Origin: Nereocystis luetkeana
Taxonomy: Eukaryota > Sar > Phaeophyceae > Laminariales > Laminariaceae
DNA length: 64,000 bases
Assembly (NCBI GenBank): GCA_031213475.1
Contig: JARUPZ010000007.1
Span: forward strand, 2,563,457 to 2,627,456
Reading direction: 5' to 3'
The translations under genes and the position numbers were made by a program. Under the pieces are notes generated by a model. The model was not told the DNA's origin. It saw nothing but the letters and a program-made list of their open reading frames with translations, and searched no databases. This document shows, one piece after another, positions 6,433 through 62,681 of the stretch (position 1 is the first letter of the stretch; each line of letters opens with the position of its first letter).

Positions 6433-9400
6433 CCCCCCTCCCATGTGCATATGGTTTTGGTAACGGCTCTTTTTTTTGTAGAAGCCCCCTCATGTAGACG
6501 TGGTTTCCGACAGCTCTTCGTGTGGACTCAACCCCTGTGTGTGTGTGTGTTTCTCTAACGGCTCTATTCGTATTCTCTCTATGAAACGACTAAATCGACT
6601 ACCTGTCGTATGTACTAAAAAAAACAGGTTCTTGGCACCTGCCCCTCTCACCCGTGGGAGGCCTCGAGCCGGTGGGTTCAGAGTTCTTCCCCGACGACCT
6701 AGCCAGGCGCCTGGCCGCCGCCAAGCTCGTCGGAAACCGCAAGGCCATCGTGCCGTTCGCGCTAAGGGGGGTTGGTATGCCCGGCGTCCCCGGGGTGGCG
6801 GCGGAATTGGCCGACCCTAACGCAAAGCCTAACAAGGATTTTGCGGCACCCGTTCGATGCTGCGTTGAGGTGGGACCCGGGATGGTATTGGGGGGGGGAG
6901 GGCAGGGGAGGGAAGGCGAGGGGGGGAGGGGGGGGAGGGGGGGGGGGCGGGGGGGGCAGGAGATGGGAGGTTACGGGGCACAGGGAGCGGGGCTGGGGGG
7001 GAGACTGCCTGCTGAGCTGCGTTAGTTAGGCAATGGCGCGAAAGAGGGGGGAGGGGCGAGGGGGGGAGGGGGGGGGAGGTTGGCCGAGTATTGTCACCCT
7101 CAACAACAACAGGGGATTTGAAGCGCCCGTTGGTGCTGCGTTGAGGTGGGATTCGGCGGGGTGGGGGGGGGGGGGGGGGGAGGGGTGTATCAGGTGCGTA
7201 TTGATCCCCAACGGTTGAGCGTGGCGTGAAACAGCAGGGGGGGGGGAGAAGAAGGGATTTCAGGTATCATCTGGTGCGTTTTTTTTCTTGTCTGCTTGTC
7301 TTGTGTGTCTTGTGTGTCTTGTTTGTTTCGTAATGCCCTCGGTCGGTTAAATGTTCGCGCTCTTTTTCCTTTCCCCCTCCCGTCGGTTGTCCACCATCCC
7401 GACGGACAGGCACGTGGTGCACGCCCTCTTGGAGGGACACGAGGAGGCTACGGCGGCGGGACTGTCGAAAAAGAACCCCGTTGACCAGGTATAATACGAT
7501 GCGCACACAGCACGGTTGAAAGGACAGCAAAAACGGCAAGGCAGGCCGCCCCGCGCCGACTCGACCCCCTTGTCTATATGTATATATTGTATAACCAGTT
7601 GTCATAGAATTTTCCTCAACTCTGCAGACACTGTCCGGAAATGCACGGAACGTTTGAATATTCACGTTAGCCCCTTTAGAACCCGCAGTCCGGTTGGGGG
7701 ACGAACTACTGAAATCCTAAGTAATTTGTCCCCAAAGCGGTGACTGCGGTCCTAAAAGGGTTAATTGCCGGAAAGGTTGTCACATTTCCGGACAGAGTAT
7801 TGTAGTGCAAAGTTTGTTTGCTGTTGGCTCGTCACCGAATTTTCGCGGTTGCAGTCGGTCAACCAACCGTTCAAGTATCGGACGTTTTTCACTAAATCCG
7901 TTCGGTGCGATAATAAGTGCGGCTCAGGCATGCTGAAGGCAACCACCCCCCCGCGCCCTTGAAGAGTTTTTTTTTTTTTAACAACATATATTTTCCGGCT
8001 CCAATGCGCAACAAGCGCTTTACAATGTTTGTAGACCGCTTTCGTCGATAGTAGTTTTTTCAACACCCTCTTTTAACATGTCGGAGAGATCACAGAGATG
8101 ATCTATCGATAGTAATAGATGATCTAGATCATCTACGAAAAGAGGATCTACAAATATATCATCTAGACATCTGCAGATAGCTCATCTAGATCCTCTAGAT
8201 CCTAGCCCGCCGGTATGATATGTTGTTCAGGATTTGCCTTCTAGGGCAGATCCAACCCAGGAAACATGTCTTACTGTAGATCATACAGATTATGCGGCTT
8301 CCACCCGACACCATGAGTGAGCTGGATCATACTAATCATACCGATCATACAGATCGGGAACATTTTTGCCCCCAAAGGCCGACAACATGAGTGAGCTAGA
8401 TCATACCGGTATATATCATACAGATAATACAGATCAGGCATCTGTATGCCCTGGAAGGTCGAGATCAAGATCGATCCGATTTGTTGAGAATTTCTCTGGG
8501 GGGGGGGGGGGGGTTATACTCGATAGGAGAGATGTACTCGATCTCATGCATGGCCGTAGTCGTATGACCATAGACCCTCGCATCCCTACAATGCCGGGAC
8601 GGACCATGTCGGGTTTTCGCCGACCAGGCAGACATTGCTTGCACCAAGCGCGAAGCGAAACGTGAGGTGTCTGGCGAGTCGCATGAAGGGTGAGCTGCAT
8701 CCTACTAAGAACCGTTTTCGAGGCGGACTTGCATATGGACGACAGCTCCAATGAGTTGATTTAATTTCCGGTGTAGGCATTTCCAGAGACAGCAATGGGA
8801 GTACTATGTAACTGCCTCTTGGGCGCCTTACCTTGAACACTACGTGATACCAGAGTTATTGGAGCCTGTCCTGCGACCACGGACTGCATTGAATTGTGAG
8901 TTAATGTGAGAACAACAACAACAACGATCATTCCCAATTGTGCGGATTAAAGGTTCTTTACCTCGCACAAATGATCTAACTCGACAACCGGCTGTGGGCG
9001 ACCGCCAAAAAAAAAAAAACGGTACCCTGGTAGTCTAGCTCACGTAGTGAGCAGCATGTTTTACAGTGTCGTTGCCAACCGACGCCAACCCAACCTATAA
9101 AAATGGGGGGAGGTCTCTGGGGGGGGGGGGGGGGGGGGGCGTTTCGCCTCCGGGTATGCAGTTGTTCTTGTTTCCCCGGCTCGAAAGCAAGGACCCTATT
9201 GGTCTACCTCGTATCGCATACTGTGCTGTCTGTTCCGAACGATGACATAGTATGCCGTGCCAGGTGTGTTGTTTCGTATGTTGACGCCGAAGCATGATAG
9301 CAGCTGACCAGGTGTCTACAATATGGACTCGAAAATCGGTACAATAGTTGGCATCAGATTTGTGAGTGGTGCGCGGCGACCTAGCCGCGTACACGGACAC

Positions 9401-12594: not shown

Positions 12595-12700
12595 TCGGGG
12601 GACCATAGTAAATAGGACCAAATGTCGTCAGTAGAAATAGGGAAATATATAGGTTTGTTGCGCGTACCGTAGGTCCTATTTACTATGGTCCCCCGTAATA
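12595..12700. mobile_element. M1 MITE, copy b
   Basis: About 106 bp. The left end has lost the outermost TATTA; the right end GGTCCCCCGTAATA is intact. Confidence 0.85.
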
Positions 12701-21150: not shown

Positions 21151-21177
21151 CTCTCTTCACCCTTGAGGTAGCGTCTT

Positions 21178-21285
21178 ATTACGGGGGACCATAGTTAACA
21201 GGACCTGTGGTATACATAAAAACCTATATGTTTAACCATTTTTACTAACAATATTTGGTCCTGTTAACTATGGCCCTCCGTAATA
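21178..21285. mobile_element. M1 MITE, copy c
   Basis: About 108 bp, TATTACGGGGGACCATAGTT at the left and a matching inverted end with one G/C variant at the right. Confidence 0.9.
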
Positions 21286-21429
21286 ATAATGTGCAGACCA
21301 AGCTCAGCCAAGCCCCGACCAAGACAATGAATACAACGATGACGCTCGCTTTGCAGACGACATCGAACCTTGTCGGAACGGACATCGTCAAGGCCAGCAC
21401 GGGGTTGGAGGGGGTTCGACGCACCGTGA

Positions 21430-28099: not shown

Positions 28100-30273
28100 A
28101 TACCGCGGGAAAAATCTTGAGGAATGCCCTGATTATTGGTATTGTGCGAGTGGTGCAGAATAACGCCTTCGGTATACCGCTTGGAGCGTACAGGGAATAG
28201 GAGGTGTTTGTGCTTGACGACGCCACAGACGCAGGCCCCGCGATGGCGGGTAGGGTTGTGTCGTATACAGTCGTAGGACAAACGGAGTACCTCCACGCGG
28301 GAGTTTTGTAGGAGGCCCTTCTCCCTCTGGGGATTGGCCTCTGCCACCAGCTGCCGTAGGATACCTTGAAAAACTCTTACGGGGAACTATAGTTATCGGG
28401 ACCCACCATGTACACCAAAACTATATACTCCAGTATTTTAATGATAACTTTCGGTCCTGATGGCTATGTCCCACCGTACGACTACTGGACATATCAATGT
28501 TAGCGCTGTAGACGCATTTACTGCTTGCTGCGCACGGTATCCCGAAAAACAAAAAACAAAAAACACGTGTCCGTATCATTGAGGCGCACGGGGGAGGGAC
28601 AGGATACAACCTATTAGGCGATGACACCAAGCGTGAAGGGTGAGTTCATCGTCCATCCGAGAAACGGAGGGAATGTTAAGCTCGTCCTTCAAGAAGGGGT
28701 GGCAAGCAAGTCCTGCACAAGAAAAAAACAAACAAACTGCCGCGAACAAGCCGGAGGTTTTTGGCCCCCTTACCGAAACAATCTGTTTCGTGTTACGTGT
28801 ACCACGCAAGGATGTGGACCGGTCGCCGTTGTAGGGAAATCGTTCTCGCGCGGTAAGCACCCAGCACAATTTAATCAAGAAGCCCGAGGACGTGACCTCG
28901 AAGGTAATCGGGCTGTCCGTGCTCGGTGATGCCCCACAAGGAGGCAGCGCATCGCAAAACCCTGTCGCCGTCAAACCACATCGCGCGACATGCAGGGTTC
29001 TTACGGTCGGTACTTCGGAAGAGACCATGCCCAGCGTAACATAAAAACGACAGGGTGCGTCACCACGCTCGGAAGAGAAACATAGACGCAAGCACATACT
29101 GTGGTCGAGCAAAAAGCTAATACGATTCACCTACTGTGCTCACCAAGAACGGGTTGATTGGCGGGGCGAACACGCCGAACAGCGGACAGGATTTTCCTTC
29201 CGGCAGGCTTCTCGGGGGACAATCGCAATACGTGCATGAGCGGAGAGGAGGAAGGGGGCGGGGGGGCGGGGGGGGGGGGGTGTACTCGATAGGAGAGATG
29301 TACTCGATATCATGCATGGCCTAGGTCGTATGGCGGGGGGGGGGTGTACTCGATAGGAGATATGTACTCGATCTCATGCGTATGGCCGTAGTCGTATGAC
29401 CATGTACACTCGCAAGGGGGCGGGGTATTTGTTCGGGCATGAGTAGATATTTCCCTCTACCCCCCTGTTGTCTTGTCTTCCGTCTGGCATTTTGTGTCGT
29501 GTTTATGTTGGTCCATCAGCTGGACATACCATGGGACTGATCGTACCAATAAGCGTTTGTCCCGTCGGGGACTCGGCCTGCACCCTGAGTGCATGCTTCT
29601 TTTGTTTAAGTTGTCCCTGTGTAGTTTCTTTCCTTCCTTTCTTTTCCTTTCTGTTGTTGTTTTCGTCCTTCTTTCGTATTTATTTGTGTTTTTACGGATG
29701 AATGTATACATAGGTATACCATGGACAGATTTCTGGTAATATTTTGTTGGACGATATACAAGATGGTTTACCACAGCTCGTTTGGACCGTTCCCTTCCGC
29801 GGTGGTACAGCGGTGCACCTATTATTTTGCGCTTTTACTTGTTTGTTTTCTCCCACCGAGACGCTTTTTTTTCAGTCTACTCTGTCATTACTATGGATGG
29901 ACTAGATTTCAGGGAAATGACCAAATGTGAGAACAACATCCTCATCATCAATATTATCATCATCATCATCGTCATCAATATCATCGTCACCATCATCATC
30001 ATCAATATCATCATCATCCTCAATATCAATACCATCATCAATACCATCATCACATCATCACAATCACAGCCTCATCCCCATCATCGTCACCTTCATCAGT
30101 ACCATATATCATCACTGGTATCATCCCAGTCATAAATAGGGCAAACACACAGACTCTCACCAGCTCGCCGGGTGCTTCGGCAGGCCGTCCGGCCCCCGCT
30201 CACTGATGTTCTCGGCCTGCCAAATGTCCGCGCAACATTCGCTGCCTTCGGAGTCGGAACTCGACGAAGAGTC
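28100..30273 (-). CDS. Candidate minus-strand multi-exon locus, function unknown
   Basis: Exon-like pieces, right to left. 30273-30161: acceptor GGAGGCGCAG, reads DSSSSSDSEGSECCADIWQA, donor GTGAGAG. A segment ending at 29144 before GTGAGC (FGVFAPPINPFL in one frame). About 28990-28766: GFCDALPPCGASPSTDSPIT to TKQIVS, donor GTAAGG. About 28725-28576: after a strong TTTTTTCTTGTGCAG acceptor, reads LACHPFLKDELNIPSVSRMD. About 28362-28130: acceptor CCTACGGCAG, reads LVAEANPQREKGLLQNSRVE. Same strand and good borders suggest one gene, but phases between pieces are not resolved and no domain is recognised. M1 copy d, two RC fragments and an ATC microsatellite fall between the pieces, where introns would be. 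Confidence 0.35.
28377..28480. mobile_element. M1 MITE, diverged copy d
   Basis: About 104 bp, ends TTACGGGGAACTATAGTTAT and GGCTATGTCCCACCGTA. The most diverged copy in the window. Confidence 0.7.
29281..29332 (-). mobile_element. RC element, short copy (first of two in a row)
   Basis: TGTACTCGATAGGAGAGATG to GGTCGTATG between G runs. Confidence 0.75.
29345..29415 (-). mobile_element. RC element, short copy (second of two in a row)
   Basis: Same terminal module, 12 bp after the previous copy, slightly longer (continues through GACCATGTACACTCGCA), again preceded by a G run. Confidence 0.75.
29935..30115. repeat. (ATC/ATT)n microsatellite
   Basis: About 180 bp of imperfect CATCAT/AATATCATC repeats. 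Confidence 0.9.
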
Positions 30274-30829
30274 CTGCGCCTCCAACCGGGGGGCAAAAAA
30301 ACGGGGGTGTTCGTCGCTTATTCGGCAAGTAGCCTTCGTTGCTCGAACGCCATTCACGCCTGACTGCACCTTCAGCTGTGTTCGCTATATCTTGCGCCAC
30401 ATGCCATGCCACGGGTGAATAGTCCACAGCAATATATCCGAACATGCCTCAATCGTGTTCCGTAGTTCCGTAGACCAAAAAAAGTGATGTCACAGCAAGC
30501 GGCAGTGCCTGGTTCAGGCGCTTTTCTTGACAAGGCAAGGTTGGATGGAGCCGGCCCGGCGCCACTGCCCTTCCGCACAGGGTTTGTTTTCTCTATCGCA
30601 CCCGCATCTGCATCTGAACCATTCCATCGGCGCGGGATGGTTACTCCGAACGGCGCTTGGGCATGTGGGCTTACGCGCGCATTGTATACATTGTATCCAC
30701 GATTTGTGGCGGCACCCCCCCTTGTTATAGCCCCCCCCTCTGCTTCCCGGGTGGGTGTGCCAAGTGTACCAACTTGTACCCATCGTACTGCTATCACCCC
30801 CCCTCTCGTCGATATCCTCCCCCTATTGT

Positions 30830-31340
30830 ATATAGGTTGGGTTGGCGTCAGTTGGCAACGACACTGTAAAACATGCCGCTCACTACGTGAGCTAGACAAA
30901 CCAGGGTACCGTTTTGTTTTTTTTGGCGGTCGCTCACAGCTGGTGGTCGAGATAGATCATTTCTGCGAGGTAAAGAACCTTTACTCCGCACAAGGGAATT
31001 GATCGTATCACGTAGTGTTCAAGGTGGGGCACCCAAGAGGCAGTTACATAGTACTCCCATTGCTGTCCCTGGAAGTGCCTACACCGGAAATTAAATTTAC
31101 TCATTGAAGCTGTCACCCATATGCAAGTCCGCCTCACAAGCGGTTCTTAGTAGGTTGCATCTTACCCTTCATGCGACTCGCCGGACACCTCACGGCGCTT
31201 CGCGCTTGGTGCAAGCAATGTCTGCCTGGTCGGTGAAAACCCGACATGCTCCGTCCCGGCATTGTAGGGATGCGAGGGTCTATGGTCATACGACTACGGC
31301 CATGCATGAGATCGAGTACATCTCTCCTATCGAGTACACC
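30830..31340 (+). mobile_element. RC element, full-length copy with target-site duplication
   Basis: About 510 bp from TATATAGGTTGGGTTGGCG to TCTCCTATCGAGTACA. CCCCCCCTCTCGTCGATATC lies just before it (from 30797) and CCCCCCCTCGTCGATATC just after it (from 31338), a direct repeat expected from target-primed integration. This copy gives the uninterrupted reference for the LINE insertion at 8850. Confidence 0.85.
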
Positions 31341-32175: not shown

Positions 32176-32776
32176 GGGTGTGCCTCCAGTAACTACGGTA
32201 CAGTTACAGTAGTACTGTAAATACGTACCTTACCTAACACAGCCTTGTAAGTTTGAGTTTCACCCCCTTCCGTGGTGGAGTTTACACCTCACCTCCTCGG
32301 AGGCTCCCGGTCGCGATGGCGGCCCCGGCGTGCTCGCTTCGTTGGTATCAGCATTCCATGTTATGAATATTATGGGGACAAACGCAGCCATTATGGATAA
32401 GGCGGCATCCGCTCGAGGCGACGCCTACTGGCAACATAACGGTGGGCATAAGGAAGAGGAAGGGCAGGAGGACGTGCGAGAGGCACCAACGACGACAGCG
32501 GTACTCGAGCAAGCAAAGGTCTGAGGACGAAGCAAAATACTATCATCGTGTTGTGTCACTTTTTCAAAGGGGAGCGGAGGGGGAGGGGGGGGGGGGCTGC
32601 GGTACGATATCTTCTCGACACAGTAAACCGTGCACCAACCAAATAACCGTCGAATCTCGCTTGATCGGCTTCGCCGAAACCACTGCAGCATGCAATGTTT
32701 GAATGAACAAGCAGTTGTAGTAGAACCCGAGTATCATGGTAAGGAAATGGAATGCAGGAATACTATCTGCACTGGC
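32176..32776. other. No gene recognised
   Basis: Unique sequence with one short G run. The 86- to 99-codon open frames have no supporting signal. Confidence 0.5.
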
Positions 32777-33033: not shown

Positions 33034-33080
33034 GTGTTGTTTTCGTATTGTTCCTCTTCATGATGAGAGATGGAAGGGAG

Positions 33081-38100: not shown

Positions 38101-39430
38101 TGCCTGCTTTTACCCTCCGATTCGGCGCGAACCGACCCAAGAGGCGAATATTGCAGACCACGAGGTTGTGGTCAGATTCATGCCGATCCTCTGGGGGTTT
38201 CCGTACTGTCATGTTGCGGACCAGGCGTCGATCAACTTGCCGAGTAAGGATGTAGTCTAGCCTACACTGACCCTTCCCGGAGTTTGGAGATTGGAAAGTG
38301 TACGACACTCCGCGAGTAGGTGTGGCAAAGAACGTGTTGAGGAGCGCAAGCCTGTTGTCATCTGCGAGGAGGAGTAGTCGCTCTCCGTTGTTGTTCAATT
38401 CATCGCGCCCGTATTTACCCATCACCTTACTGCCGGCACATCCGCTCTCTCACTTGCCGGTGCGAGCATTTGCATCCAAGAGTACAAGTAGGTGATCCCC
38501 ACTTGGGACCCCCGAGACGACTTTGTTCAGTTCGTTCCAGAAGTGATCTTTCTCGCGAACGGGTGCATCCAGTATCGGCGCATAGCCGACAACAAAATAA
38601 ACAGCATTTGATTTGCCCTCAAGTTGAATGCGAACTTTCATCAGTCTGGCACTAACGCACTCCACCTCGAGACCATCCTTGCCCACACCTGCCACAATAG
38701 ACTCCCTGACAGCTAGTCCTACACCATGGGTGCCCTTCCTCTCGTATTTGCTGCCGTCTGCTCCAGAGCAAAAAATCGTGTATCCAGCTGCTGTGAACGT
38801 GCTATGCCCGTCTCGCCTAGTCTCTTGGAGACCTACGACATCGCATCCTAGTTCCTGGCATACCTTCATGATGACCTCGCTGTGGCCGATGCCATTTTTG
38901 CCGTTGAAGGCGAGTGTGCGAACATTGAACGTACCCACGACGAGTTCCCCAGCTCTGTACCTAGCCCTAGCATCTGAGCGTAACCTTCGAGCTTCTCTGC
39001 GACCTTTCCGACCTTGCCTCCTCTTCTTTCGTGCAGCGTGTTTTTTCTCCTCTACCCTCCGCTTTTCCCAGGCGGTGGGTTTCTTCCGTTCCGTGTTTTT
39101 TCGCCCGGCCCGGTTCGTGCCGAGGTTCCGACGTGCTGGGGGCAGCAATCCCAACGCGCCTCGACGCCCATCATCTCCTAGATGACGTCGAATGGGGTGC
39201 TTACTCACGTGGATCCTAGCCTCTCTTCTCCGTTCGCTACGAGTTCCACGCTTTCCGCGACGGTGATACGACACGGCTACCGCAGGCAATACTGCCGCGT
39301 GGAAAAAATCCGCGAGAAAATTTTCCGCCATATCGCTGGCCATCACCGCCGGCTCGACCATGCTCGAACGCTAGTTAGACGCGCAAGCAAGGTCAAGGCC
39401 GCGCTCCACTGGGAGCTCTAGCACGTGTTG
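35108..39430 (-). mobile_element. Non-LTR retrotransposon (LINE), apparently near full length
   Basis: One long ORF (APE endonuclease, then reverse transcriptase), a 3' UTR, and a (AAC)n tail (GTT run at 35108-35128 on +). The single-ORF layout, the C-terminal region with LLYGCVTWSPSKSDYGRL and a short tandem 3' tail resemble RTE-type or related elements. The 5' end is placed only approximately. Truncated relatives: 8850-8925, 41953-42147 and, more distantly, 50692-50840. Confidence 0.85.
35828..39361 (-). pseudogene. LINE polyprotein: APE endonuclease plus reverse transcriptase, two nonsense codons
   Basis: Three open segments share one frame and read as a single protein of 1177 codons from ATG at 39361. 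A basic N-terminus of about 135 residues is followed by an exonuclease-endonuclease-phosphatase domain (FNVRT at about 145, LQETR at 179, SDHN at 396). The reverse transcriptase follows, with QCGFRPERSTVDMM, FVDLTKAYDSVDRT, QGLRQGCVLAPLLF and catalytic YADD at about 923. A Lys-rich insert sits just before YADD. In-frame TGA at 38450-38452 interrupts TGK*ESGCAG and TAA at 36407-36409 interrupts GQVY*QTTEFVYLGG. It would copy its RNA by target-primed reverse transcription, but this copy should be inactive unless the stops are assembly errors or are read through. Confidence 0.9.
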
Positions 39431-39545
39431 GGGAAGCCGCAGGCCGGAGCTCCACCCCGGCCGGGGAGCAGCCGATGGTACTATGTATAGAAATACCCCA
39501 CTAACGCACACACGCAAAATTCAGACCGCCGATTGATGGTATTAT

Positions 39546-39654
39546 TATTACGGGGGGCCATAGTTAACAGGGCCAAATATTGTTGGTAAAAATGGTTAAA
39601 CATATAAGTTTTTATGTACACCATAGGTCCTGTTAACTATGGTCCCCCGTAATA
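39546..39654. mobile_element. M1 MITE, copy g, inside the hAT-like ORF
   Basis: 109 bp with GTTAACAGG arms. It follows the codons for LLFNSIV of the flanking ORF, which continues into MITE sequence as LLRGTIVNRTYG. Confidence 0.9.
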
Positions 39655-40483
39655 GTACGATACTATTGAATAGGAGCATCTCGCTGGTGGGCGCAAAACA
39701 AAAAATCGATGTACTCTGGGTCACCTCATCTTTGTGGAGGTGTTTCTTCGCGAAATCGAGCAGTTCCGGAAAATATTTCTCCGGCTTGCTTCCAAGCTCC
39801 TCGACACGCCGCAGAAACTCGAGAGAGAAATCAGGCGCCTCCGCCAAACGCATGCCGGGAGGAAGTCGCTCCACCTTGCCGTTGCGCTTCAAGAAGTAGC
39901 CACCCTTTCCCCGAATCCAGTTGTACGCCCGGTAGAGCACTTTCTCTCCGAGCGCGGTGGCAAACTTGGCGTGCACGCGCATCAACGGATTGTTGAGCAT
40001 CACATACGGTTTACTCCAATAGTTCATAAAAGGCGTCCCGAGAAGCTTGCTCGGTGCCCACTGCCAAAAAATCCACGTGACGTAATCCCAACGCCTGTCG
40101 AGGATAGTCGCTCCCTCCCACGTAACCATCCAGCGTGTTTCAGCAGGCCTGATAAACTTCTCGCTCCACGCCACCCCAAATTTTGCGAAGATCAAAGTCT
40201 TGAACTGCGACCATGTCGTGTTGGAAACATCCGACTTGCTCGTGTTGTACCAGACAGAACCGAGCAAAGAAACGAGGTGCTGTTTTGGCCATTCGTGCCA
40301 TGAACCGGTTCCGAGAGGGCCCATGAAACTATCGGTCTGCATCCCCGCGCTAATGGCGAGGTGGAGGACATGCAAGAGACATCCGATCCGAAACGCGTAG
40401 ATAATGGGAACATATGCGTCAGCAGTCGCCTGCGCAGCTTCGCCATCCTCCATCCTCTTTCGCCCCTCTCCTTCCCGCTCCAA
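39655..40483 (-). CDS. hAT-like transposase, N-terminal/middle part, disrupted
   Basis: About 275 codons in one clean frame. CLLHVLHLAI recalls the conserved His-containing segment of hAT transposases, and FIRPAETRWMVTWEGATILD matches the TRWxSxxxxL motif. Further downstream are WDYVTWIFWQWAPSKLLGTP and ELLDFAKKHLHKDEV. M1 copy g cuts the frame on its 3' side, and the LINE then separates it from the C-terminal part at 33879-34708. It may have started upstream of 40483, where an AG at the CTTTGGAG end could be an acceptor. The hAT assignment rests on two motifs and is moderate. Confidence 0.5.
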
Positions 40484-41499: not shown

Positions 41500-41952
41500 A
41501 GTGAATCCGATCTGTACCAAGCGATTCCACAGGCATTGCATCGCATACATATAGCGGCCAGCCAGCACTCTACTCAGCCGGCACTATAGAGAGACCCCTG
41601 CTGCTGCTGTACATAGCCTCGCTTTGCTGAGATACGTACGAAAGTTAAGTTTCCCCTCCAATACAATGCAATATGTCTCTCGTCGCCTGGAGAGAGGCCC
41701 AAGTTTTTTCGAGCTGAGCGACCAAGTGGCGCCGTGTTGCCGGCCAGTATCTTCCCCTTCGACGTTATATACTGTAACTAACTGCTGTAACGGTACGTTC
41801 GATGTATTGTCATGTTTCCCGCATCTATCTGTGCATGCAGTAATAGGATTATTTAGAACGTGTCTTTATAGTTGGATATTACACCTTTCGCTTTGCCGTA
41901 CTATACAGTATAATATACGATCTACTGTGCAGTAACTAAGTTGTACATACCT

Positions 41953-42147
41953 GTTGTTGTTGTTCTCACATTAACTCACAATACAATGCAGTCCGTGGTC
42001 GCAGGACAGGCTCCAATAACTCTGGAGTGGAAGAAATACCTCAAGTAAAACAGAGGCAAAAACAAAAAACAAGCACACGCACTCCACCACTGCGGACACC
42101 AGGGAAGCAAAAAGGATAATAATAGCAGACAAAAACCTAAAAAAGAT
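41953..42147 (-). mobile_element. 5'-truncated LINE 3' fragment with (AAC)n tail
   Basis: About 195 bp, roughly 93% identical by eye to 35109-35320, starting with the tail (GTT run at 41953) and diverging abruptly at 42147. Typical of incomplete target-primed reverse transcription. Confidence 0.9.
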
Positions 42148-44571: not shown

Positions 44572-44876
44572 TTTGTTGAACAGCGGCTGGAAAATTCGTC
44601 CCAACTAGGGGGTGCGTTGTACCATGCGTGTTACGCGGTACCGTAGTTATTCGGTGTCTCAGGCACTTGGAGAAAAATGTTGTTTATTCGCTTCCCGGAC
44701 CACTCGGGCATCCCACTCAACCCCACTCATCGACAAAATCCGGACCAAAAATGTGGGGTGGGACACTCCAAACTGGAGATCATCTTATCGGGAGAAAAGC
44801 CCACAATTCAAGACCCGACACGCGTGTTCGCGTTTTGGTGGGAAGGCGGGGACGTGCTACTGTAGCACTCATTCCT

Positions 44877-44953
44877 TGCTCGCCTCAGTCATTTGATCAT
44901 TGACCACGCACCCCTTTCGAGACGGAGCACCGCTCCTACGCCTAATAGAGACA
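44877..44953 (+). repeat. Dispersed repeat, copy 1
   Basis: TGCTCGCCTCAGTCATTTGA to GAGACGGAGCACCGCTCCTA. Matches 54074-54148 at about 80%. Confidence 0.7.
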
Positions 44954-45029
44954 CCTCCTGCAACAGTTGGGCGCTCCGCTCATTACGTTGTTTCCATATA
45001 TTACACTCTGCGTGGGGGTGGGGGTGGGG

Positions 45030-50691: not shown

Positions 50692-50840
50692 AGGCGTTCT
50701 TCCACTCCGGTGTTATGGGAGCCTGCCCTGATGACCACGGACTCGATTTTGGCGACAAGTTCCCATGTGACAACAGCAGCAGCAACAAAAACAACAACAG
50801 CAACAACAACAAAACCAACCACACGAAAAAGCAAACAAAA
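50692..50840 (+). mobile_element. Diverged LINE 3' end with (CAG/AAC)n tail
   Basis: Shares CTTCCACTCC, GAGCCTGCCCTGATGACCAC and GGACT with the 3' end of the LINE at 35108-39430, then an AACAACAACA-type tail. An older copy or a sister family. Confidence 0.6.
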
Positions 50841-51245
50841 AGAACAACTCCTCAATTCCAACTACAACCATTTTAGCGCCACTTACTAATAATACCACCT
50901 CATAGGACCCCATACCACCACTCCATCGCCATTCACCACCAACCTATCGTCGCTTAGCCCCGCTTGTCACCATCTCTTCGCCACTGGGCAACTCGCTTCC
51001 TTCGCGACGACACTATAGATCGAGCCACGCCACACGCCCACACTCTTATGACTCGTCGCTTCGACGAACATGACAGCGGCGACAATTGTCAGGGGGAGAT
51101 ACGTGTGCATAAGCGAGTTCTGCGCATTTACCGGGGGATCCACACGCACGCAAACAGACCCTAGCGGGGGGAAGCAAAACGTCGGCTTCTCACACTCGAT
51201 GTTAGAGAGGTCTGTGGAGAGGAGGAGAGGGGGGGGGGGGGGGGG

Positions 51246-51443
51246 TGTACTCATGTCATGCATGGCCGTAGTCGTATGACCATAGACCCTCGCATCCCTA
51301 CAACACCGTCACGGGACACGTCGGGTTATCACCAACCAGGCAGACATTGCTTGCACCAAGCGCGAAGCGCCGTGGGGTGTTGGGCGAGTCACATGAAGGG
51401 TGAGCTGCATCCCACCAAAGAACCGCTCATGAGCCGGACTTTC
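51246..51443 (-). mobile_element. RC element, partial copy (about 200 bp)
   Basis: TGTACTCATGTCATGCATGG through GACTTTC, then a G run. Truncated relative to full copies and lacking part of the terminal direct repeat. Confidence 0.8.
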
Positions 51444-52160: not shown

Positions 52161-53969
52161 CCCTTTGGCCGTAGGACGACGGCCATGTATGTTATGATAA
52201 CATCCCAACCCTCTACTTCATTTCCCTCCTCTACCCCCCCCCCCTTTCCCTCCGCTTCCCTCTCCCCCCTCCGTACCCCCCCCTTCCCCCGGCCTATGGC
52301 CACAGCTATGCCTGACAGTGAACACCTCCCCCCCTGAACCCTCTCACTAACCTTAAGGTAGACCTCCATCTTCCCTTTTCCGACACCTTGAGCGACAGCC
52401 GCCGAGCACACCACCCTGCCCGGCTTCTGATGGCACCAGGCATCGAAACCGGCAGACGATGGAAGAAAAAGCAAGGCACGCGGCGGAGCGGCGGCGCGAC
52501 AAGGGAATACAAAAGGTATTCAGCAAGTGAGCCCAACGTTATGATACTGTTACGGGGGACCATATTAAATAGGACCTGCGGTAGGCACAACAACCAATAT
52601 ATTTACCTATTTTTACTAACAATACTCGGTCCTATTTACTACGGTCCCCCGCAATAGTAGGACATCACTTCTAAGTGCGTGACTCTGGAACGGGGTGGTG
52701 ACGCTGGATGGGGAGCAGACGGGGGTGGACGGGGTGTACTGGAGGGGGGGTGAATGGGGGAGGGTGACAAGCCGGGCGCGGTCGCAGCAAAATTGACACC
52801 CCATCGCAAAATTGACACGCAATAGGGATTCGCGATGGGGGTGTACTCGATAGGGGAGATGTACTCGATCTCATGCATGGCCGTAGTCGTATGATGATAG
52901 ACCCTACTATGCCGGGACGGAGCATGTCGGGTTTTAACCGACCAGGCAAACACTGCCTGCACCAAGCGCGAAGCGCCGTGAGGTGTCCGGCGAGTAGCAT
53001 GAAGGGTGAGCTGCATCCTACTAAGAACCGCTTTTGGGGCGGACTTGCATATGGACGACAGCTTCAATGAGTTAATTTAATTTCCGGTGTAGCCACTTCC
53101 AGAGACAGCAATGGGAGTACTATGTAACTGCCTCTTGGGTGCCTCACCATGAACACTACGTGATACCTGGTACAATCAATTCAAATGTGCGGAGTAAAGG
53201 TTGTTCACCTCGCACAAATGATCTCTGACTCGACAACCAACTGTGGGCGACCGCCAGAAAAAAAAATGGGGTACCATGGTTGTCTAGCTCACGTAGTGAG
53301 CGGCATGGTTTACAGTGTCGTTGATAACCGACGCCAACCTAACCTATATAAAATATAGGGGGGGGGGGGGTGTACTCGATCTCATGCATGGCCGTACTCG
53401 TGTGACCGTAGACCCTCGCTTCCCTACAGTACAATGCCGGGACGGAGCACGCCGGGTCTTCACCGACCAGGCAGACATAGCGAGCACCAAGCGCGAAGCG
53501 CCGTGAGGTGTTCGGCGAGTCGCATGAAGGGTGAGCTGCATCCTACTAAGAACCGTTTGTGACGCGGGCATGCACATGGATGAAAGCTTCAATGTGTTAA
53601 TTTATTTCCAGTGCGGCCATTTCAGAGACAGCAATGAGGGTGCCTTACCGTAAACATGATGCGATAATTTCCCTTGTGCGGAGTAGAGGGGGGGGGGGAC
53701 AGGAAGCGCAGGTGGATGCTTTCGTTTTCGAAACATTCCTGGTGGTTCAAACAAAGGGGATATGCGAATTTTTGGGTCAATGGTTAGTTCTGACTAGTAC
53801 AGCAGCATCCCCTCCCCGCCGCACTGGCCACAGCAGAGCAGCGCGCGTTACCTTCGACTCCTCGGTCGCGATGCCGCTCCACAGCTCCGCGATCACGTCA
53901 TTGATTGCCCCCGCTAAGTTCTCAATTTCCTCCAAAAATGCTTTTTCCACGGCTTCTCGCACGGCGTCT
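51856..53969 (-). CDS. Candidate small gene, last three exons
   Basis: Three minus-strand exons join in phase 0. 53969-53852 (acceptor TTTGCTTGCTTACAG, donor GTAACG) reads DAVREAVEKAFLEEIENLAG then AINDVIAELWSGIATEESK. 52426-52352 (acceptor GTGCCATCAG, donor GTTAGT) reads KPGRVVCSAAVAQGVGKGKM then EVYLK. 51960-51856 (acceptor ATCGAAAG) reads EDLRRLLEEQIFGAFFKDAR then AKGPGARARLASTA-stop. Consistent phase and amphipathic helix-like composition support it; the last acceptor has a poor pyrimidine tract. No family recognised and no 5' end found. The first intron holds two RC copies and an M1 MITE. Confidence 0.4.
52549..52656. mobile_element. M1 MITE, copy i
   Basis: About 108 bp, TGTTACGGGGGACCATATTA at the left, GGTCCCCCGCAATA at the right. 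Confidence 0.85.
52842..53356 (-). mobile_element. RC element, full-length copy with a TACCTGGTA gain
   Basis: About 515 bp. Where other copies read GTGATACGATCAATTC, this one reads GTGATACCTGGTACAATC, creating TACCTGGTA at 53164. Adjoins the next RC copy across a G run. Confidence 0.85.
53371..53687 (-). mobile_element. RC element, partial copy (about 315 bp)
   Basis: Begins TGTACTCGATCTCATGC directly after the G run at the end of the previous copy and stops at TGCGGAGTAGA before another G run. Confidence 0.85.
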
Positions 53970-54030: not shown

Positions 54031-54064
54031 TGTACTCGATATCATGCATGGCCGTAGTCGTATG
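54031..54064 (-). mobile_element. RC element, minimal copy
   Basis: 34 bp, TGTACTCGATATCATGCATG to GTCGTATG, after a G run of about 20. Confidence 0.65.
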
Positions 54065-54073
54065 GCTCATTTG

Positions 54074-54148
54074 TTGCTCGCCTTAGTCATTTGACCATTG
54101 ACCACGCATCCCTTCCGAGACGGGGCACCGTTCCTACTTCTACAGGAG
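54074..54148 (+). repeat. Dispersed repeat, copy 2
   Basis: Counterpart of 44877-44953, lying between two RC copies. Confidence 0.7.
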
Positions 54149-54187
54149 ACATTTCCAACATTTGGCAGGGGGAGAGGGGGGGGGGGG

Positions 54188-54711
54188 TGTACTCGGTAGG
54201 AGAGACGTACTCGATCTCATGCATGGCCGTAGTCGTATGACCATAGACCCTCGCATCCCTACAATGCTGGGGCGGAGCATGTCGGGTTTTCACCCACCAG
54301 GCAGGTATTGCTTACACCAAGCGCGAAGCGCCGTGAGGTGTCCGGCGAGTCGCATGAAGGGTGAGCTGCATCCTTGTACTAAGAACCGCTTGTGATACGG
54401 ACTTGTATATATGGACGACAGCTTTGGTGAGTAAATTTAATTGCCGGTGTCCAGAGACAGCAAAGGGAGTACTATGTAACTACCTCTTGGGCGCCTTGCC
54501 ATAAACTCTACGTGATACAAGAATTCCCCTTGTGCGGAGTAAAGGCATTTCACCTCGAACAAATGATCTACAACTCGATCACCAGCTGTAACCGACCGCC
54601 GAAAAAAACATTAAAACGGTACCCTGGTTGTCTACTGTAGCTCAAGTAGTGAGCGGCATGTTTTCCTGTGTCGTTGCCAACCGACGCCATCCCAACCTAT
54701 ACATATATAAT
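54188..54711 (-). mobile_element. RC element, full-length copy
   Basis: About 525 bp, from TGTACTCGGTAGG to CCCAACCTATACATATATAA. G-rich sequence (GGGAGAGGGGGG and GGGAGAGATGGAGGGGG) lies outside both ends. Confidence 0.85.
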
Positions 54712-55375
54712 AGGAGGGAGAGATGGAGGGGGGGGGGGGGGAAAGACGATTTCGGCCGATAACGGTGGACAACAAACCAATCCTTGAGTTCTGTGGATCC
54801 CGACTGCACGCGCGACGAGGTTTAACTTGAGCTTTAGTGTGACACTTATCGGCGAACAATGCAGTGGCGTTTTCTTTCCGGGGTTGTTGCTGCTTCGCTT
54901 CTGTCATCTCCAAAAAAACAAAGGGCGAAGAAGAGAAGGAGAGGGGGGGGGGGGCAGGCCAGGTCGGGTTTCTTCTGTCACTTTTTGTTTTTTCGTCCTG
55001 GTGCATCTAGAACCCCCCCTCACTCCTTCCCCCCCCCCCCCCCCCCCCGAGAAAACAACGGGTGAGCGGGTGAGACAGCTGGATCCTAACTGAATTTGAA
55101 CTTGAAACTCGACGACGAGCGGCGCTTTTTTTCCGCTGGGTGGTGCGTTTGCTTGGCTTGGCTTCCGTCAACTTGAAAATATACGAGAAGCCAACAGCGC
55201 GGGGGGGGGGCGAGGGGGGGTCAGGACGCCGGGTCGGGTGGCGTCTGCGATTTTTTGCGATCAAAATAATGCCCCCGCGAAACTTGGCGGCCACCAAACA
55301 GACACACCGACGCGCAGGCACCCAGACACCCAGACACCCAGATATACAGACGCCCAGACACCCAGACACCCAGAC
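54712..55375. other. No gene recognised
   Basis: G and C runs and unique sequence. Runs into short CCCAGACA units from about 55320 that lead into the GACA array. Confidence 0.5.
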
Positions 55376-55963: not shown

Positions 55964-56163
55964 ATGGAACCCACCGTGCAGTGGCACTGCGTCACCTGCA
56001 CAAAGTCCAACGGGGGCCAACAACGGGAAGCGCAAGCCGCGTTCTTGAAAAACTTGAAAACAGACGCCTTTGATCAGCCGCGAAATCGAAAAAAAATCGC
56101 CGAAGCTCATCTCTGCAAAAGCTGCTTCGTGTGGTACTGCGACACGTACAGCGCGTGCTAATA
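55964..56163 (+). CDS. Short Cys-rich ORF ended by a MITE
   Basis: ATG at 55964 opens MEPTVQWHCVTCTKSNGGQQ and ends AHLCKSCFVWYCDTYSAC. Two CxxC pairs about 40 residues apart, the second as LCKSCFVWY, recall the second half of GATA-like zinc knuckles, though the spacing is longer than usual. The frame is open upstream to an AG at 55927. The stop codon TAA is the first triplet of M1 copy j, so the insertion probably truncated a longer frame. Could be an exon fragment; protein function unknown. Confidence 0.35.
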
Positions 56164-56282
56164 CGGGGGACCACAGTAAATAGGACCTACTATTGTTAGT
56201 AAAAATAGCGAAAACAGGTACCTGGTAGGTGTTTGTGTGCACCGTAGGTTCTACGGAGTATTTAATATGCCCCCCCGTAATA
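56159..56282. mobile_element. M1 MITE, copy j, with a TACCTGGTA gain
   Basis: About 124 bp. Where copy a reads ACAGGTTTCTGTGTG, this one reads ACAGGTACCTGGTAGGTGTT, an extra ten or so bases containing TACCTGGTA (56219). Confidence 0.8.
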
Positions 56283-57090
56283 AAACAGGTTTGTACTGTG
56301 GGTCGGTCACCACCCCCCTGGGTGATACCAGGAGTACTAGGGTCAGCCAGGACGAATTATACACTAAGACGATTTAAAAAAAAAACAAGACACGGGGAAA
56401 ACAAAACAAAAATACAAATAAAAAAACCCGGACAAAAATAAAAGAGTTGTGCCACTGTAGCTACCGTATCCGCGCATACCCTCTACTCCCTGCCCCCCCC
56501 CCCTTCCCCCCTCCTCTCTCTGAGACCCGTCTCGCCGACATCGTCACTCCGTCTGACGCAGGCTGCACCAGAGAGAAGGGCACTGCGCATCGGACCAAAA
56601 CAAACAAACACACACACATACCGAGGGGGCCGCCGATGCCCATTAATTTTACCTTGAGTTCGTCCTAAAACATAAGGATCATTTGTGTAGTGATTAGAAT
56701 ACCCGAGCGCCCCTTTTACCATTCCGGACAGCTTTTGGCGAAAAACAAAAACTACGTATATACCCACCCCTCGAAAGTAGAGGCCTGCTGGCCGCCACAC
56801 GAGAGAGGGGGGGGGGGGGGGGAGGGTTTCAACATCCTAAAGGCGGGAGAAAAGCGAGTGAGCGAAAAATTGGGTGCGCAGTGGCCCCACGATCGGCAGC
56901 GTCTTTTTCAGTCCTCGGGGATGAGAGATAAGAGTCGCCGCTGCTGCCGCCGCGCATGCATGTACCTGGACCGCGCCTTCGGGCGGGGAAAGGTCTCCGC
57001 TTCACCCTTAAGAGAAGGTCTCCATTGCACCCTTCGCGATCTACATACGAGCATGCATCTGGGGGCAGACGTATCTCTGATCAAGTAGGG
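56283..57090. other. No firm gene; one unassigned + ORF
   Basis: A + frame reaching a stop at 57088 includes RACMYLDRAFGRGKVSASPL and EGLHCTLRDLHTSMHLGADV. It has no clear splice borders and I cannot assign it. Confidence 0.25.
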
Positions 57091-57107
57091 ACAACAACAA
57101 CAACTTC

Positions 57108-57153: not shown

Positions 57154-57154
<1 letters not shown>

Positions 57155-57818: not shown

Positions 57819-57931
57819 ATTATTGCGGGGGACCATAGTAAATAGGACCTATGGTATACATAAAAACCTATATATTTAACCATTTTTACTAACAATATCC
57901 GGTCCTATTAACTATGGTCCCCCCCGTAATA
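57819..57931. mobile_element. M1 MITE, copy k
   Basis: About 113 bp, TATTGCGGGGGACCATAGTA at the left, GGTCCCCCCCGTAATA at the right. Middle nearly identical to copy c. Confidence 0.9.
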
Positions 57932-58095
57932 GCTAGATGAATGATTCTTATGAATGATCGAGCTAGGTCAATGATCCAGATGACTGAGCTAGACTGCTAA
58001 GCTACATAAATGGATGGTTTAGATTACCTACCAGGTATCTATTAATAGTAATAGATAAATGTATATATCTGGTGTGTGGTACCGGTGTAGTATAC

Positions 58096-61000
58096 CTTCA
58101 GCAATCCTGGCGAGCCCGACCCGAGCGCACCGCTCGGCTTCCACCCTTCGTCTTCCTCTTCGCCCCGCCCCCCTTCCCCCTCTCCGCAGTCCTCCACCGT
58201 CGGCGGGGATGCAGCTCCCCTCTCCCTGCCCTTCAGGCCAGCCCGGGCATCGCCATCACCATCACCACCACCACGGAGCCCCGTCCCCGATCCAGACGTC
58301 GCCAAAACCTCTAACGGGTCGTTAAATGCGGCGGCGTCGCTGGGCGACGATGGAGGTCTGCTCGTGGGCGACGTGAGAAGCGCTTCTGCCGAGGAGCGGA
58401 CGGAGGAGTCCGCGGAAGCGAAAAACGAGGAGACCGGGTGGACGGACGTGGTGGCGGTGACCGCAGCCTTTGGCTGCCTCAAGCGGTTCTTGATCCTGCT
58501 CCTCCCCTTGGCCAGGGCCGCGGTTACCGAGCTCCTGAAAAAAAAACACACACACACATACGGGGGGGTTCATGGGTTACACAACCGAGCGGTAGCTGTG
58601 GTTGCGCAAGAATATATGCAGCGCATGCGAGAGAGAGAGAAAGAGGCCACGCGCACGCGTGGGGAGTAATTCGTCCCCCGGTACGCATACGACCCCCGCC
58701 CCTTCACAAAGTCCGTCTCACAAGCGGTTCTTAGTTGATAGGATGCAGCTCGCCCTTCACGCGACTCGCCGGACACCACACGGCGCTTCTTGGCGAAAGC
58801 AATCTCTGCCTGGTCGGTGAAAACCCGATGTGCTTCTTCCCGGCATTGTAGGGGTGCGAGGGTCCATAGCCACTACGGCCATGAATGGCACCAGTACACC
58901 CGCCCCCTCCCTCCCTCCCCTCCCTCCCTCCACCATATATGCCGGCTGACGCCCTCGCTCCCACCTCCGCCCTGGGCCCAACCTCTGGAACACCGCCCAC
59001 ACAACACCGTGACGCACGGCACGGCACGCCACGCCCCAGCGTTGTGGAGACGGGCTCCCGAAGACGCAAGGGACAACCATCCACGCCGCGAGATCAATAA
59101 CAACACCCAACGCTCACAAACAGCAGCAAACCAACAAACAGCAACAACACTCCAGCGCCAACAACAACAGCGGCAACAACACCACCACAACCTCCTCCAT
59201 CAATAAAACAACAGCAACAACGACAACGACGTGTGCAAACCACAGCACCCACATGGTCTGCCGCTTGGACAAACCGCCACCGCCAAAGCCACTAAAGCCG
59301 CCGCCGCCGCCGCCGCCACCGCCGCCGTCGTCAGGTCGTACCTCTTCCGCGACCGCCCCATCAGCCGCGCCGGAAAATCCGGCGCGCCGACCACTTCCGT
59401 CGCCGCCAGCAACGACAGCGACGGCTGTCACCGCAGCGACGGCAGCAGGACCCGCCGCGCGACCGGGGGCATGACCATGCAAAGCTTGGCGACCACCACC
59501 GTCGATAGGGCTACTACCCCCTCTGCCTCCAACAGCTCCCAGGTCATCACTTCCACCCCCCCACCCCGCCGCGTCGCCGCCGCCTCCGCCGCCGCCGCCG
59601 CCGCCGCCGCCGCCCCCCTCGAGGCCGCCGCGACGTCCTCGCCGCGCAGGCGTCGATGGCTCGAAGGCCTTAAGCTCGTCCTCCGACTTGTATCCGGGAG
59701 ATGAATGGGACTCTTTAACCGCCGGCGACCACGACCGTGACCGCGGGGGCGTGGGCGCCGGCCGCAGTGACGACATCGTGGCGGAAAATGGTGAGAGAGA
59801 GCTGGCCCCGGCGCCGGGGTCGAGGGAGACGGAAAGCGAGATGCCCTTCAGCGTAACCCTGTTCATGGAAAGCGTTTCGTGTCGGGGGTGTCAGGTGAGA
59901 AACAGGGCGACGGAGGAGAAGAAGGAGGACGAGAGGCGGGGGGGGGGGGGGGGGGGGCGAGGAGGAGAAGGAGAAGGAGGGGGGCAGGAGGGGGGGAGAA
60001 AACGGGGACGAGGCGCGGGGGGGGAGGGGGGAGGAGGGAGGAGGAGGGGAGAGAGGAGATGGAGAAGGAGGAGGAAGGGTTGGGGGTGGCGGGAGAGGAG
60101 GAACTTAGTGTCAGTAACAAAGCAACGGTGCGTGGGGCCCACCGGGCTTTCCCTCGAACTCACTCGGCGCAACACACGCCAGCCCCCGTGACACAGCGGC
60201 AAGGGTGCTCTGCGGTTGCGAATATTCCGTGCCAGGCAGAGGCCGATATCTTCGGCAGCATCCGAGGGAGAGCGGTCAGTGTGCCGCGCGCGGTTTCCGC
60301 CTCTTGGTGCAACGTACCACACCCCTTCAAACTGAAATTCAAACATCTTTTCCAACCGACCATTCCTTGCCCCTCTCTTCCAGATCTGCGAATATTTCAC
60401 GCTGCACCGCTGCTACAGCCGTAGCGACGCCAAAACAAATCGCCCCGGCTCCCGCATTCCAAAGGGCCGGTCGGACCCGGCGGCGAAGCGACCGTGGCAC
60501 CACGCCTCCGGGGGCGCTCGAATAGCCCACTACTACATATTCAAGTCGTCCCCCTTCCCCCGCTCTTCGCCACGCGTCCCGTCAACGGCAGCAACAATTT
60601 TGAGCAGGGGGGTGAGCTCCCAAGACCTGACCACAAAGAAGCCGCACCCACCTGACCGAGCCGGAGTCCTCAATTCTCAAGAACCTCTTGTGTTGCATTT
60701 GAACCGACCAACGAACGTCCGGGAGGAACCCGCTCACGCCTCCTACCGTGAAGGACAAAAACGGAGGTCTCTCTCTCCGCCTCTTCCCTCTCCCCCGTGC
60801 CCCCTCCCCCCGCCCCTCCTCGTTCTCGTCCTCGCCCTCGCCCTCCTCCTCCTCCTCGCTTTGCTCCTTTTCTCCGGGCTCACTCCCCTCTCGCTCTCCG
60901 TCGTCCGCCATGCCGCGCGAACCTCTCCGCCTCGATTTCCTATTCCTGCGAGCACCGCCTCCTCCCCCGTTCCCCCTGGCGGCTCGGGTCGCTGGTCTTC

Positions 61001-62681
61001 CGGCGCCCCCCTCCGTGTCCGACCCGCCGCCAACCGCGGCTACGGTGGCCGCGGCCTTTCTCCAAGCTTCTTTCCCGGAATCGAGGACGCGCGGCAGCAC
61101 ACCGGTGCCCTCACCCGAAAACAGCCCCTGCATGGTAGTAGCGCCGATGCTCTTGTCGTGGGACGTCCTCCTCCGACGCGTTGGCCCGGCCGCTCCTCCC
61201 GCTCCGACGCTGCAACCGACGCCCCCCTCGCCGTGGTCACGCGCTGCCGCTTCGTGGCCACCCGATTTCGGCCACGTATGTCCGGTGTCAGACACGACAT
61301 TCGCCAGGGTGGGAGAAAGAGGAGGAGCGGCGACGGCGGTCAAGGACGTCTTCCTGTAGCCCCCGCACGAAAAACAAGACAGAGACGATCAAGCGGGCCG
61401 CAAAAGTACCAAGGGTGGAGTGAGGGGGCAAAAGTCGTCGTTGGGAGGGAGGGGGGGGGGGGGGTGTACTCGATAGGAGAGATGTTCTCGATCTCATGCA
61501 TGGCCATAGTCGTATGAGGGGGGGGGGGGGGGTCGATTGCTCTTATAACGCAACCAGAGCGCCGCACACCGACAACAGCAATGCTACCCTCGTGGGAACC
61601 GTTCCTCGAACCGGCGCAGGCGCGCCGACACATACAGTCTTTTGCGCTTGGTAAAATCTCGTCGTGAAATCACGACGTCTAAGACCCTGCGTATGGTGCA
61701 AGCTCGCGGTAAACCTCAGACCTTGCGGTGCTCCCCAAGCTTTGGCGTCTCCCCGCAATATCTCCATCTCCACCCCCCACTGCGCTGCAAGGCGGTCGAA
61801 GCCCGGGGTCTGTGCCCCGGCGCTGCTTCTTCCCCTGCCCGAACTCCCGTGGGTCCAACGCGTTGGCTGTAGGAGGCGATTGCCAGACGCCTCCAGCCCG
61901 CCGCGCTGGGCTAAAGCCACGATTCGCGGCCCCCTTCACCCTGCCTGTTTCGTCCTTCGTTCTGCGCTCGGGCGTCGCGGGCGAGGCGTCGCTGTCGGGG
62001 GGGGTTTCGAAGTGTTTCTCGGCATGGCGGCTGTCGCTGTGTAGGCTCTTCCGGTCGACCACGCCACCACCGACGGCGACGTCCTGCGCTCCGGCAGCAC
62101 CTCTCATGGAGGTGGGTGCAAGCCTTGCTGCGCAGTTAGAACCACCGCCGTGAAGATGCTCTTCCTCTTCCTCGTCCTGCTCGTCCTCACCTCCGTCCTC
62201 CCGGCGCTCCTCGTCCTCCTCGCCCTCCTCCTCCTCCTCCCCCCCCTCCTCCTCCTCCTCGTCTTCGTCATCTTCCTCTTCATCACCACCCTTCTCAATA
62301 TCCCCCCTCGCCTCGTCTCCCTCTCCTGTCCCCCCTACGTCTCCACTTCGCGAGCGGCGAGAACGACGGCCTTCCTGCGGTCGCTGCCGCTGCTGGTGCT
62401 GCTGTCGGGCCTTTCCCGCCGCCGCCTGGAAATCCCTCCGCCCTTTCGCAAGAGAGGCCGCCAAGAGCGCCTTCGTCGCGGACAGCGGGCGCACGGGAGA
62501 GCGCAGCGAGTACTCAGCGCCGCCGCCGCCGCCGCCGCCGCCGTCGACGGGGCTGGAGGAGATCGGAGATGGGGTAGTCGGCGACATGTCCACGCTAACA
62601 GACGCGGGCCTGTTGGCGGTCCTGACGGCCCTCTCCTCGTCGGGATCGACCACAACCGCGTCCCCCGGCGGTATGAAAGCC
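58096..62681 (-). CDS. Candidate multi-exon gene for a disordered protein (minus-strand option)
   Basis: Segments with splice-like borders, right to left. From 62681 (acceptor ATATCGCCAG): AFIPPGDAVVVDPDEERAVR, SATKALLAASLAKGRRDFQA, then a long Glu/Asp-rich run and SPATPERRTKDETGRVKGAA. 61353-60627 (acceptor GGGCTACAG): TSLTAVAAPPLSPTLANVVS to RFLRIEDSGSVRWVRLLCGQ. 60385-60164 (74 codons, donor GTGAGTTCG): MFEFQFEGVWYVAPRGGNRA. 58533-58096 (strong TTTTTTTTTCAG acceptor): SSVTAALAKGRSRIKNRLRQ to GSGSPGLLK, donor GTATAC. The shared LAKGR(R/S) phrase and charge-rich style suggest one gene. Parts overlap the + strand candidate at 59475-60610, so not all of these can be exons. No domain recognised. 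Confidence 0.4.
58706..58899 (+). mobile_element. RC element, partial copy (about 195 bp)
   Basis: Matches the terminal 220 bp of full copies but lacks about 25 bp of the terminal direct-repeat module (ATGAATGGCACCAGTACACC). C-rich sequence on both sides. Confidence 0.75.
59475..60610 (+). CDS. Candidate exons on the plus strand, Pro-rich protein (conflicts with minus option)
   Basis: A Pro-rich frame from 59475 runs into GVDGSKALSSSSDLYPGDEW and MPFSVTLFMESVSCRGCQ, ending at a consensus donor (TGTCAG|GTGAGA) at 59899. After an excellent acceptor (CCCCTCTCTTCCAG), the frame from 60384 reads ICEYFTLHRCYSRSDAKTNR to TILSRG, with a second consensus donor GTGAGC at 60611. Splice signals are better than those on the other strand here, but upstream and downstream exons are not found and no domain is recognised. 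Confidence 0.4.
61465..61517 (-). mobile_element. RC element, short copy between G tracts
   Basis: TGTACTCGATAGGAGAGATG to AGTCGTATGA with G runs of about 14 on both sides. Confidence 0.75.

Follow-up and report, generated by a model that had tools for sequence, protein, structure and literature searches.

RC, a putative SINE-like retroposon in C/G homopolymer runs of the brown alga Nereocystis luetkeana, and a LINE with a related 3' tail

A 64,000-nucleotide stretch of the genome of the brown alga Nereocystis luetkeana (assembly GCA_031213475.1, 465 Mb in 1,987 contigs; contig JARUPZ010000007.1, positions 2,563,457-2,627,456; hereafter the window) carries a short repeat, RC, whose copies lie in runs of C or G. 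It is likely that RC is a non-autonomous retroposon of about 520 bp resembling a short interspersed element (SINE), moved in trans by a long interspersed element (LINE) of the same genome, and that both enter C/G runs by target-primed reverse transcription. Retroposition of this type had been proposed in an initial annotation of the sequence, and together with the C-run as its target it is supported by the variable 5' truncation of the copies, by target duplications, by an inverted 5' segment in one copy and by the finding of a LINE with a homologous 3' end.

RC copies and their C-run flanks

Fourteen RC copies were found in the window with blastn and with an nhmmer profile built from RC copies themselves. 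The aligned copies have a common 3' end and a variable 5' reach, and both the number (at least 14 with one common terminus) and the truncation lengths given in the initial annotation held up in the blastn and flank checks, although the range it named (8490..61517) omits the copies at 2757 and 3752. Four copies are near full length (8514, 30818, 52839 and 54185), and the remaining ones are about 317, 196, 190, 70, 66, 60, 58, 54, 53 and 34 bp. At the 3' end a unit of about 18 nt (ATCGAGTACATCTCTCCT) is present once or twice, and the pattern of the 3' terminus matched the window ten times at no more than three mismatches, against 0.04 expected from shuffling. When the element ends were placed just before the terminal C's, a sense C-run (3-19 C) began at the 3' junction of all 14 copies, in agreement with the earlier claim of a C run after nearly every copy. 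C-runs of at least 7 were present within 25 nt of 10 of the 14 copies on the 5' side and of 11 on the 3' side, compared to 1.7% of background positions per strand, and no G-runs of at least 7 were found on the sense strand at either side of the 14 copies; the elements thus lie in the runs in one orientation.

The same picture was obtained genome-wide. The exact 19-nt RC terminus occurs 4,804 times (a reversed-pattern control, 0), and at least 7 C, the pattern's own CC counted, follow 3,421 of these termini (71%). With the full RC query, 4,211 first-look candidates were obtained; 40 were scored and 30 cut out, and RC copies are dispersed over many contigs. For the analysis of flanks, 40 of the first 100 terminus places were picked by hand along the list, all on contig C1, and 39 of them were usable for 5' flanks; the 28 further full-length loci used below are the best-scoring ones. 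Fourteen of the 40 sampled copies are full length and the remaining 26 measure 21-497 bp. Within 30 nt, a C-run of at least 5 is present at the 5' side of 31 of 39 copies and at the 3' side of 37 of 39, while the background away from these elements is 5.4% of 30-nt windows per strand. In the truncated copies alone, where a full-length element's own 5' C's cannot interfere, the counts are 20 of 25 (5') and 24 of 25 (3'). Many full-length copies (L005-L034) open with a C stretch (such as CCCCCTATTTTATATAGG), even where a 5' C-run flank is missing (e.g. L011). One of the 40 sampled copies (L089) has an inverted 5' segment, an inversion of the kind ascribed to twin priming. On contig C1, at 10,522,957-10,524,041, four RC termini lie about 360 bp apart in a local tandem array that includes RC.

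The target duplications start with the C-run and in the clearest cases extend 5-13 nt past it. The two that the initial annotation had named are real, namely CnAGAGA around 8514-9110 and C7T(CT)CGTCGATATC around 30818-31340, and clear examples among the other loci are C5TACCTGGTACC (CCCCCTACCTGGTACC) at L070, C12GATTTATYAC at L033, and C10TGACCCACTC and C6AGGGCTT at the truncated copies L073 and L081, respectively; shorter duplications, such as CnTC at 54185, were also seen. In an alignment test with the C-run length collapsed, the two flanks of a copy matched each other better than they matched the flanks of other copies, both in the 39 sampled copies (z 4.7) and in the 28 full-length ones (z 6.1), and 0 of 5,000 permutations reached the observed value in either set. 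In a test anchored at the junction, the matched bases after the C-run summed to 68 in the 39 copies compared to 28.0 +/- 6.6 (0 of 20,000 permutations), and to 47 compared to 21.4 +/- 5.7 in the truncated copies alone (P = 0.0002). An anchored match of at least 3 nt was present in 11 of the 39 copies, with 3.3 expected. The sample from the genome settled in favour of duplications what the window copies alone had left short of significance.

Among the copies of the window, nesting could be seen at two places. The full-length copy at 52839..53357 (-) abuts with its 5' end the C-run after the 317-bp copy at 53371..53689 (-; 5' C11, 3' C13), and the copy of about 54 bp at 29278..29334 (-) starts in the C-run of its host, a copy of about 70 bp at 29342..29414 (-); both are read as nested insertions. 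In the further loci, additional RC stretches were found outside the central copy in 13 of 29, and an RC or LINE match in 19 of 29, the latter at a loose threshold with no background rate beside it. Several short copies have C-runs at both sides: 3752..3816 (+; 60 bp) lies between C24 and C10, 11099..11157 (-; 58 bp) between C16 and C9TC9, 51244..51441 (-; 196 bp, with a single tail unit) between C21 and C17, and 61462..61517 (-; 53 bp) between C15 and C14. The copy at 2757..2824 (+; about 66 bp) is flanked by a CCCCTCCCTCCCTC duplication and follows closely after a LINE 3' fragment, the copy at 58709..58900 (+; about 190 bp) has a weak duplication, CCCGCCCC(T), and the 34-bp copy at 54031..54064 (-), with C19 at its 3' side, directly abuts a LINE fragment. 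Of the full-length copies with a duplication, 30818..31340 (+) is about 520 bp, 54185..54725 (-) carries the short CnTC, and 8514..9110 (-) is interrupted at about 8851-8923 by some 75 bp of foreign sequence. Besides the 14 copies, a marginal profile match (nhmmer, E 0.005) at 52163-52204 (+), preceded by C28 TCCCCC, is perhaps an old decayed RC copy.

Searches with RC outside its own family gave little. There was no match in Rfam, no tRNA gene according to ARAGORN with bacterial settings, and no RNA polymerase III (Pol III) promoter was recognised, the A and B boxes being judged by eye only. Nothing was found by blastn in phage and plasmid records, nor by exact-pattern scans for RC pieces in IMG/VR and GTDB contigs, among which the window's own genome is perhaps not included; four IMG/VR matches to a 17-mer resemble neither RC nor the LINE and were discarded.

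A LINE with a related tail, and other repeats

A second repeat with a related tail is often seen in RC flanks, and in L023 and L032 this tail repeat runs upstream into a broken reading frame for the C-terminal part of a reverse transcriptase (RT). In L023 the frame ends ...ASNK, with a TGA stop 4-5 nt before the C-run. When the single-unit form of the RC tail is aligned with the LINE tail, 48 of 61 bases are identical (score 25, against at most 16.5 in 5,000 shuffles); a LINE with a 3' end homologous to that of RC, for which the initial annotation had advised to look, exists in this genome, and it too lies in C-runs. A search of the genome with the protein query P0242 gave 15,212 first-look candidates, 68 of which were scored; the four loci that were extracted (L101-L104) each terminate in GTACGC, inside a C-rich run. 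An open frame of 921 amino acids in L101 matches RVT_1 with 99.5 bits, and the closest solved sequences to P0242 include R2 and L1 (L1 ORF2p among the PDB sequence matches), which assigns the partner RT, as judged from sequence, to the type without long terminal repeats (non-LTR). The upstream part of the L102 copy (L106) has, behind an N-terminal region, an Exo_endo_phos match of 44.3 bits (cut-off 24.5), a predicted endonuclease domain of the apurinic/apyrimidinic endonuclease (APE) type. This copy is about 4.1 kb long, ends short of the upstream homology common to two other copies and is flanked by C13 and C11. In L101 an RC piece begins in the C-run after the LINE.

The LINE is clearly truncated at its 5' end, as its 23 3' fragments measure from 41 to at least 950 bp, and a C-run of at least 5 was present 5' of 16 of them and 3' of 20. 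The genome has 1,258 exact matches to the LINE terminus with C6 behind it, a figure for the C6-bearing termini alone. The window holds three 3'-end fragments: a decayed one of 61 bp at 2666..2726 (+; coordinates from the printed flank), 79% identical to L023 and ending AAATGAGTA followed by CCCCCG; one at 44866..45005 (-) with no C-run at its 3' end; and one at 54066..54165 (-) that adjoins the RC copy at 54031. According to the protein search, relatives of the LINE protein occur in brown algae, in Ectocarpus (64-66% identity over 57-71% of the query), in Sphacelaria and, by a short stretch, in a record with the label Undpi1, taken here to be Undaria. In two relatives (P0124 and P0135) the frame continues beyond its usual end into a proline-rich stretch, which is what translation of a C-run would yield. 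The LINE protein also appears at 80% identity (P0121) in a record deposited as a bacterial metagenome-assembled genome (Parasphingorhabdus sp.), probably a contaminating algal contig.

Another LINE is located in the window itself at about 35116-39385 (-). It is of the APE type, but it was rejected as the partner of RC because (AAC)n forms the 3' tail in 25 of 25 copies. No C-run follows this tail in the four that were printed, and the identity to the partner LINE is about 24-26%. The element looks very young, since the 39 other copies that scored best among 2,410 candidates have 99% identity over 1.3 kb. The window has further 3' pieces of it at 41952-42144 and 50697-50793, and the insert of about 75 bp inside the RC copy (about 8851-8923) is another piece of it. 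Its named relatives are from Ectocarpus and other brown algae, and none were confirmed in the IMG/VR scan. A repeat of about 105-125 bp beginning CGGGGGACCATAGT occurs at 5849-5961, 12596-12700, 21176-21288, 32776-32885, 32922-33035, 39543-39657, 52550-52659, 56158-56283 and 57820-57932; it partly matches itself on both strands and is thus perhaps a miniature inverted-repeat transposable element (MITE) with terminal inverted repeats. C/G runs of at least 9 are in large excess in the window, 62 (25 C and 37 G) compared to about 0.8 expected from base composition and to 8 A and 11 T runs, and only 18 of the 62 are near RC copies.

Mechanism and rival explanations

The duplications begin with the C-run, and so the nick used for priming would fall at, or within, the G-run on the opposite strand. 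We propose that the LINE enzyme nicks the G-rich strand within a G-run, and that the nicked run anneals by its 3' end to the C-rich 3' terminus of the RNA (...GAGTACACCC in RC, ...GAGTACGCCC in the LINE) and primes the synthesis of complementary DNA (cDNA). Second-strand cleavage past the run, by 5-13 nt in the clearest cases, would then produce a duplication made of the C-run and a short unique stretch, and incomplete cDNA synthesis would leave 5'-truncated copies. Least certain are the selection of the target, by enzymatic cleavage or by pairing of RNA with DNA, and the movement of RC in trans by the LINE. Each insertion would turn one C-run into two, and because an insertion duplicates its C-run, the targets would multiply. 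It is therefore conceivable, although we hold it only tentatively, that the LINE/SINE pair builds its own habitat, with elements and C-runs multiplying each other; this could account for the nested clusters and much of the excess of C/G runs, perhaps also in other brown algae, with C/G pairing in the place of the A/T pairing of L1-like elements.

Target choice could also be a matter of annealing only. If the endonuclease had little or no sequence specificity, C-tailed RNAs would be primed only where a nick or break bares a G-run, for example at breaks associated with G-quadruplexes. The many C/G runs of the window would provide both targets and fragile sites for this, and the 8 of 39 sampled copies with no 5' C-run would fit it, but duplications that end some nucleotides past the run suggest staggered cleavage and not random breaks, and the LINE appears to have an endonuclease domain of the APE type; we consider the explanation possible but rather doubtful. 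That the C-runs are mainly poly(C) tails made at insertion, the target preference being secondary, is improbable. Tails may have contributed, as the initial annotation allowed: a C-run is seen more regularly on the 3' side than on the 5' side (37 versus 31 of 39 copies), and copy 54031 has C19 on the 3' side only. However, a tail cannot make a 5' C-run in a truncated copy, where it is nevertheless present far above the background level, and unique bases past the C-run are duplicated along with the run.

The array on contig C1 with its spacing of about 360 bp, and flanking tracts that may be recombinogenic, would suit a view of RC as a satellite, or as a DNA segment that recombination or gene conversion has carried from one C tract to another. 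We regard such a spread as very improbable, because the copies are dispersed on many contigs with a fixed 3' end and variable 5' truncation, and because of the unique-sequence target duplications, the 5' inversion and the LINE with the homologous tail. Least credible of all is a cut-and-paste or rolling-circle DNA transposon: another short non-coding repeat of the window does look MITE-like, but in the aligned RC copies no terminal inverted repeats were noticed by eye, and they combine variable 5' truncation with an intact 3' end.

Several observations also weigh against target-primed retroposition into C-runs, or limit the data on which it is based. Fewer than 7 C follow 29% of the RC termini, and 8 of the 39 sampled copies as well as the window copy 54031 have no 5' C-run (of at least 5, within 30 nt, in the sampled copies), which could mean that some C-runs are tails or that duplications have been lost. 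In the window alone, the duplication test on flanks with collapsed C-runs missed significance (P = 0.074), 14 copies being too few for a formal test. A duplication is not measurable at pure-C flanks, and only 11 of the 39 sampled copies give an anchored match of at least 3 nt. The 40 sampled copies are from one contig and were chosen by hand, two of them (L091 and L092) entered the count separately despite having common flanks, the choice of the 28 full-length loci by best score favours young copies, and the binomial P values assume independent positions. RNA stability at the RC 3' end is nothing unusual (z about 0). For the LINE, most of the 23 fragments stem from loci that had been selected for RC and are rich in C-runs, which makes them a biased sample, and the displayed 5' flank of two fragments still belongs to the element; the endonuclease matches of L107 (16.5 and 15.2 bits) are below the cut-offs, and endonuclease and RT were together in one open frame in none of the LINE copies examined. 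Mobilisation of RC in trans by the LINE is suggested by the common tail and the common target only.

Comparison with known systems

It seems that N. luetkeana offers a concrete LINE/SINE pair directed to C/G homopolymers, and does so among organisms whose mobile elements are mostly uncharacterised. With this pair nature provides a means to test whether the target is chosen through annealing of homopolymers or through the specificity of the endonuclease. G-runs are hard templates and prone to form quadruplexes, and their use as primers would be unusual. If the duplication of targets feeds more insertion, retrotransposition would be linked to homopolymer expansion in a feedback that can be measured.

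In human, L1 and Alu form a pair of an APE-type LINE and a short partner, in which the L1 duplication begins with an A-run and 5' truncation and 5' inversion occur. The pair described here is alike in its truncation and inversion and in that the duplication starts with the homopolymer that would do the priming, an A-run in L1 and a C-run in RC. It differs in that the bases are C/G and not A/T, that a specific 3' tail common to both elements is present instead of poly(A), and that no Pol III promoter was recognised in RC. RC is short and has its 3' tail in common with a LINE, and in this it resembles a SINE.

Insertion into a simple repeat applies to RC and the LINE as well, as C7 or more follows 71% of the 4,804 RC termini and most sampled copies have C-runs on both sides. 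Non-LTR elements specific to microsatellites include Dong, Kibi and Waldo. Togen, which is found at (TG)n, and some HERO families are described likewise in the passages concerned (PMC4640811), and integration into simple repeats is what they have in common with RC and the LINE. In contrast to the (TG)n of Togen, the target here is a mononucleotide C/G run, in which no register exists, and a non-autonomous partner is present in thousands of copies. In the open-access literature covered, including the topics of brown-algal SINEs and RTE-X, no C/G homopolymer target was found described for non-LTR elements.

The closest likeness is to RTEX-N1_Ec32 of Ectocarpus, which is described in the passages concerned as a non-autonomous element of about 600 bp with more than 6,000 copies, whose 3' end is common with autonomous RTE-X LINEs and whose 5' region is of unknown origin (PMC12477816). 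Unlike what we see in RC, the passages of that paper on poly, homopolymer, microsatellite and RTE-X say nothing of C-runs (PMC12477816). Compared by description and not by sequence, and as far as these passages go, RTEX-N1_Ec32 and RC are very similar in kind, as both are elements of a brown alga with a similar size and copy number and a 3' end shared with a LINE.

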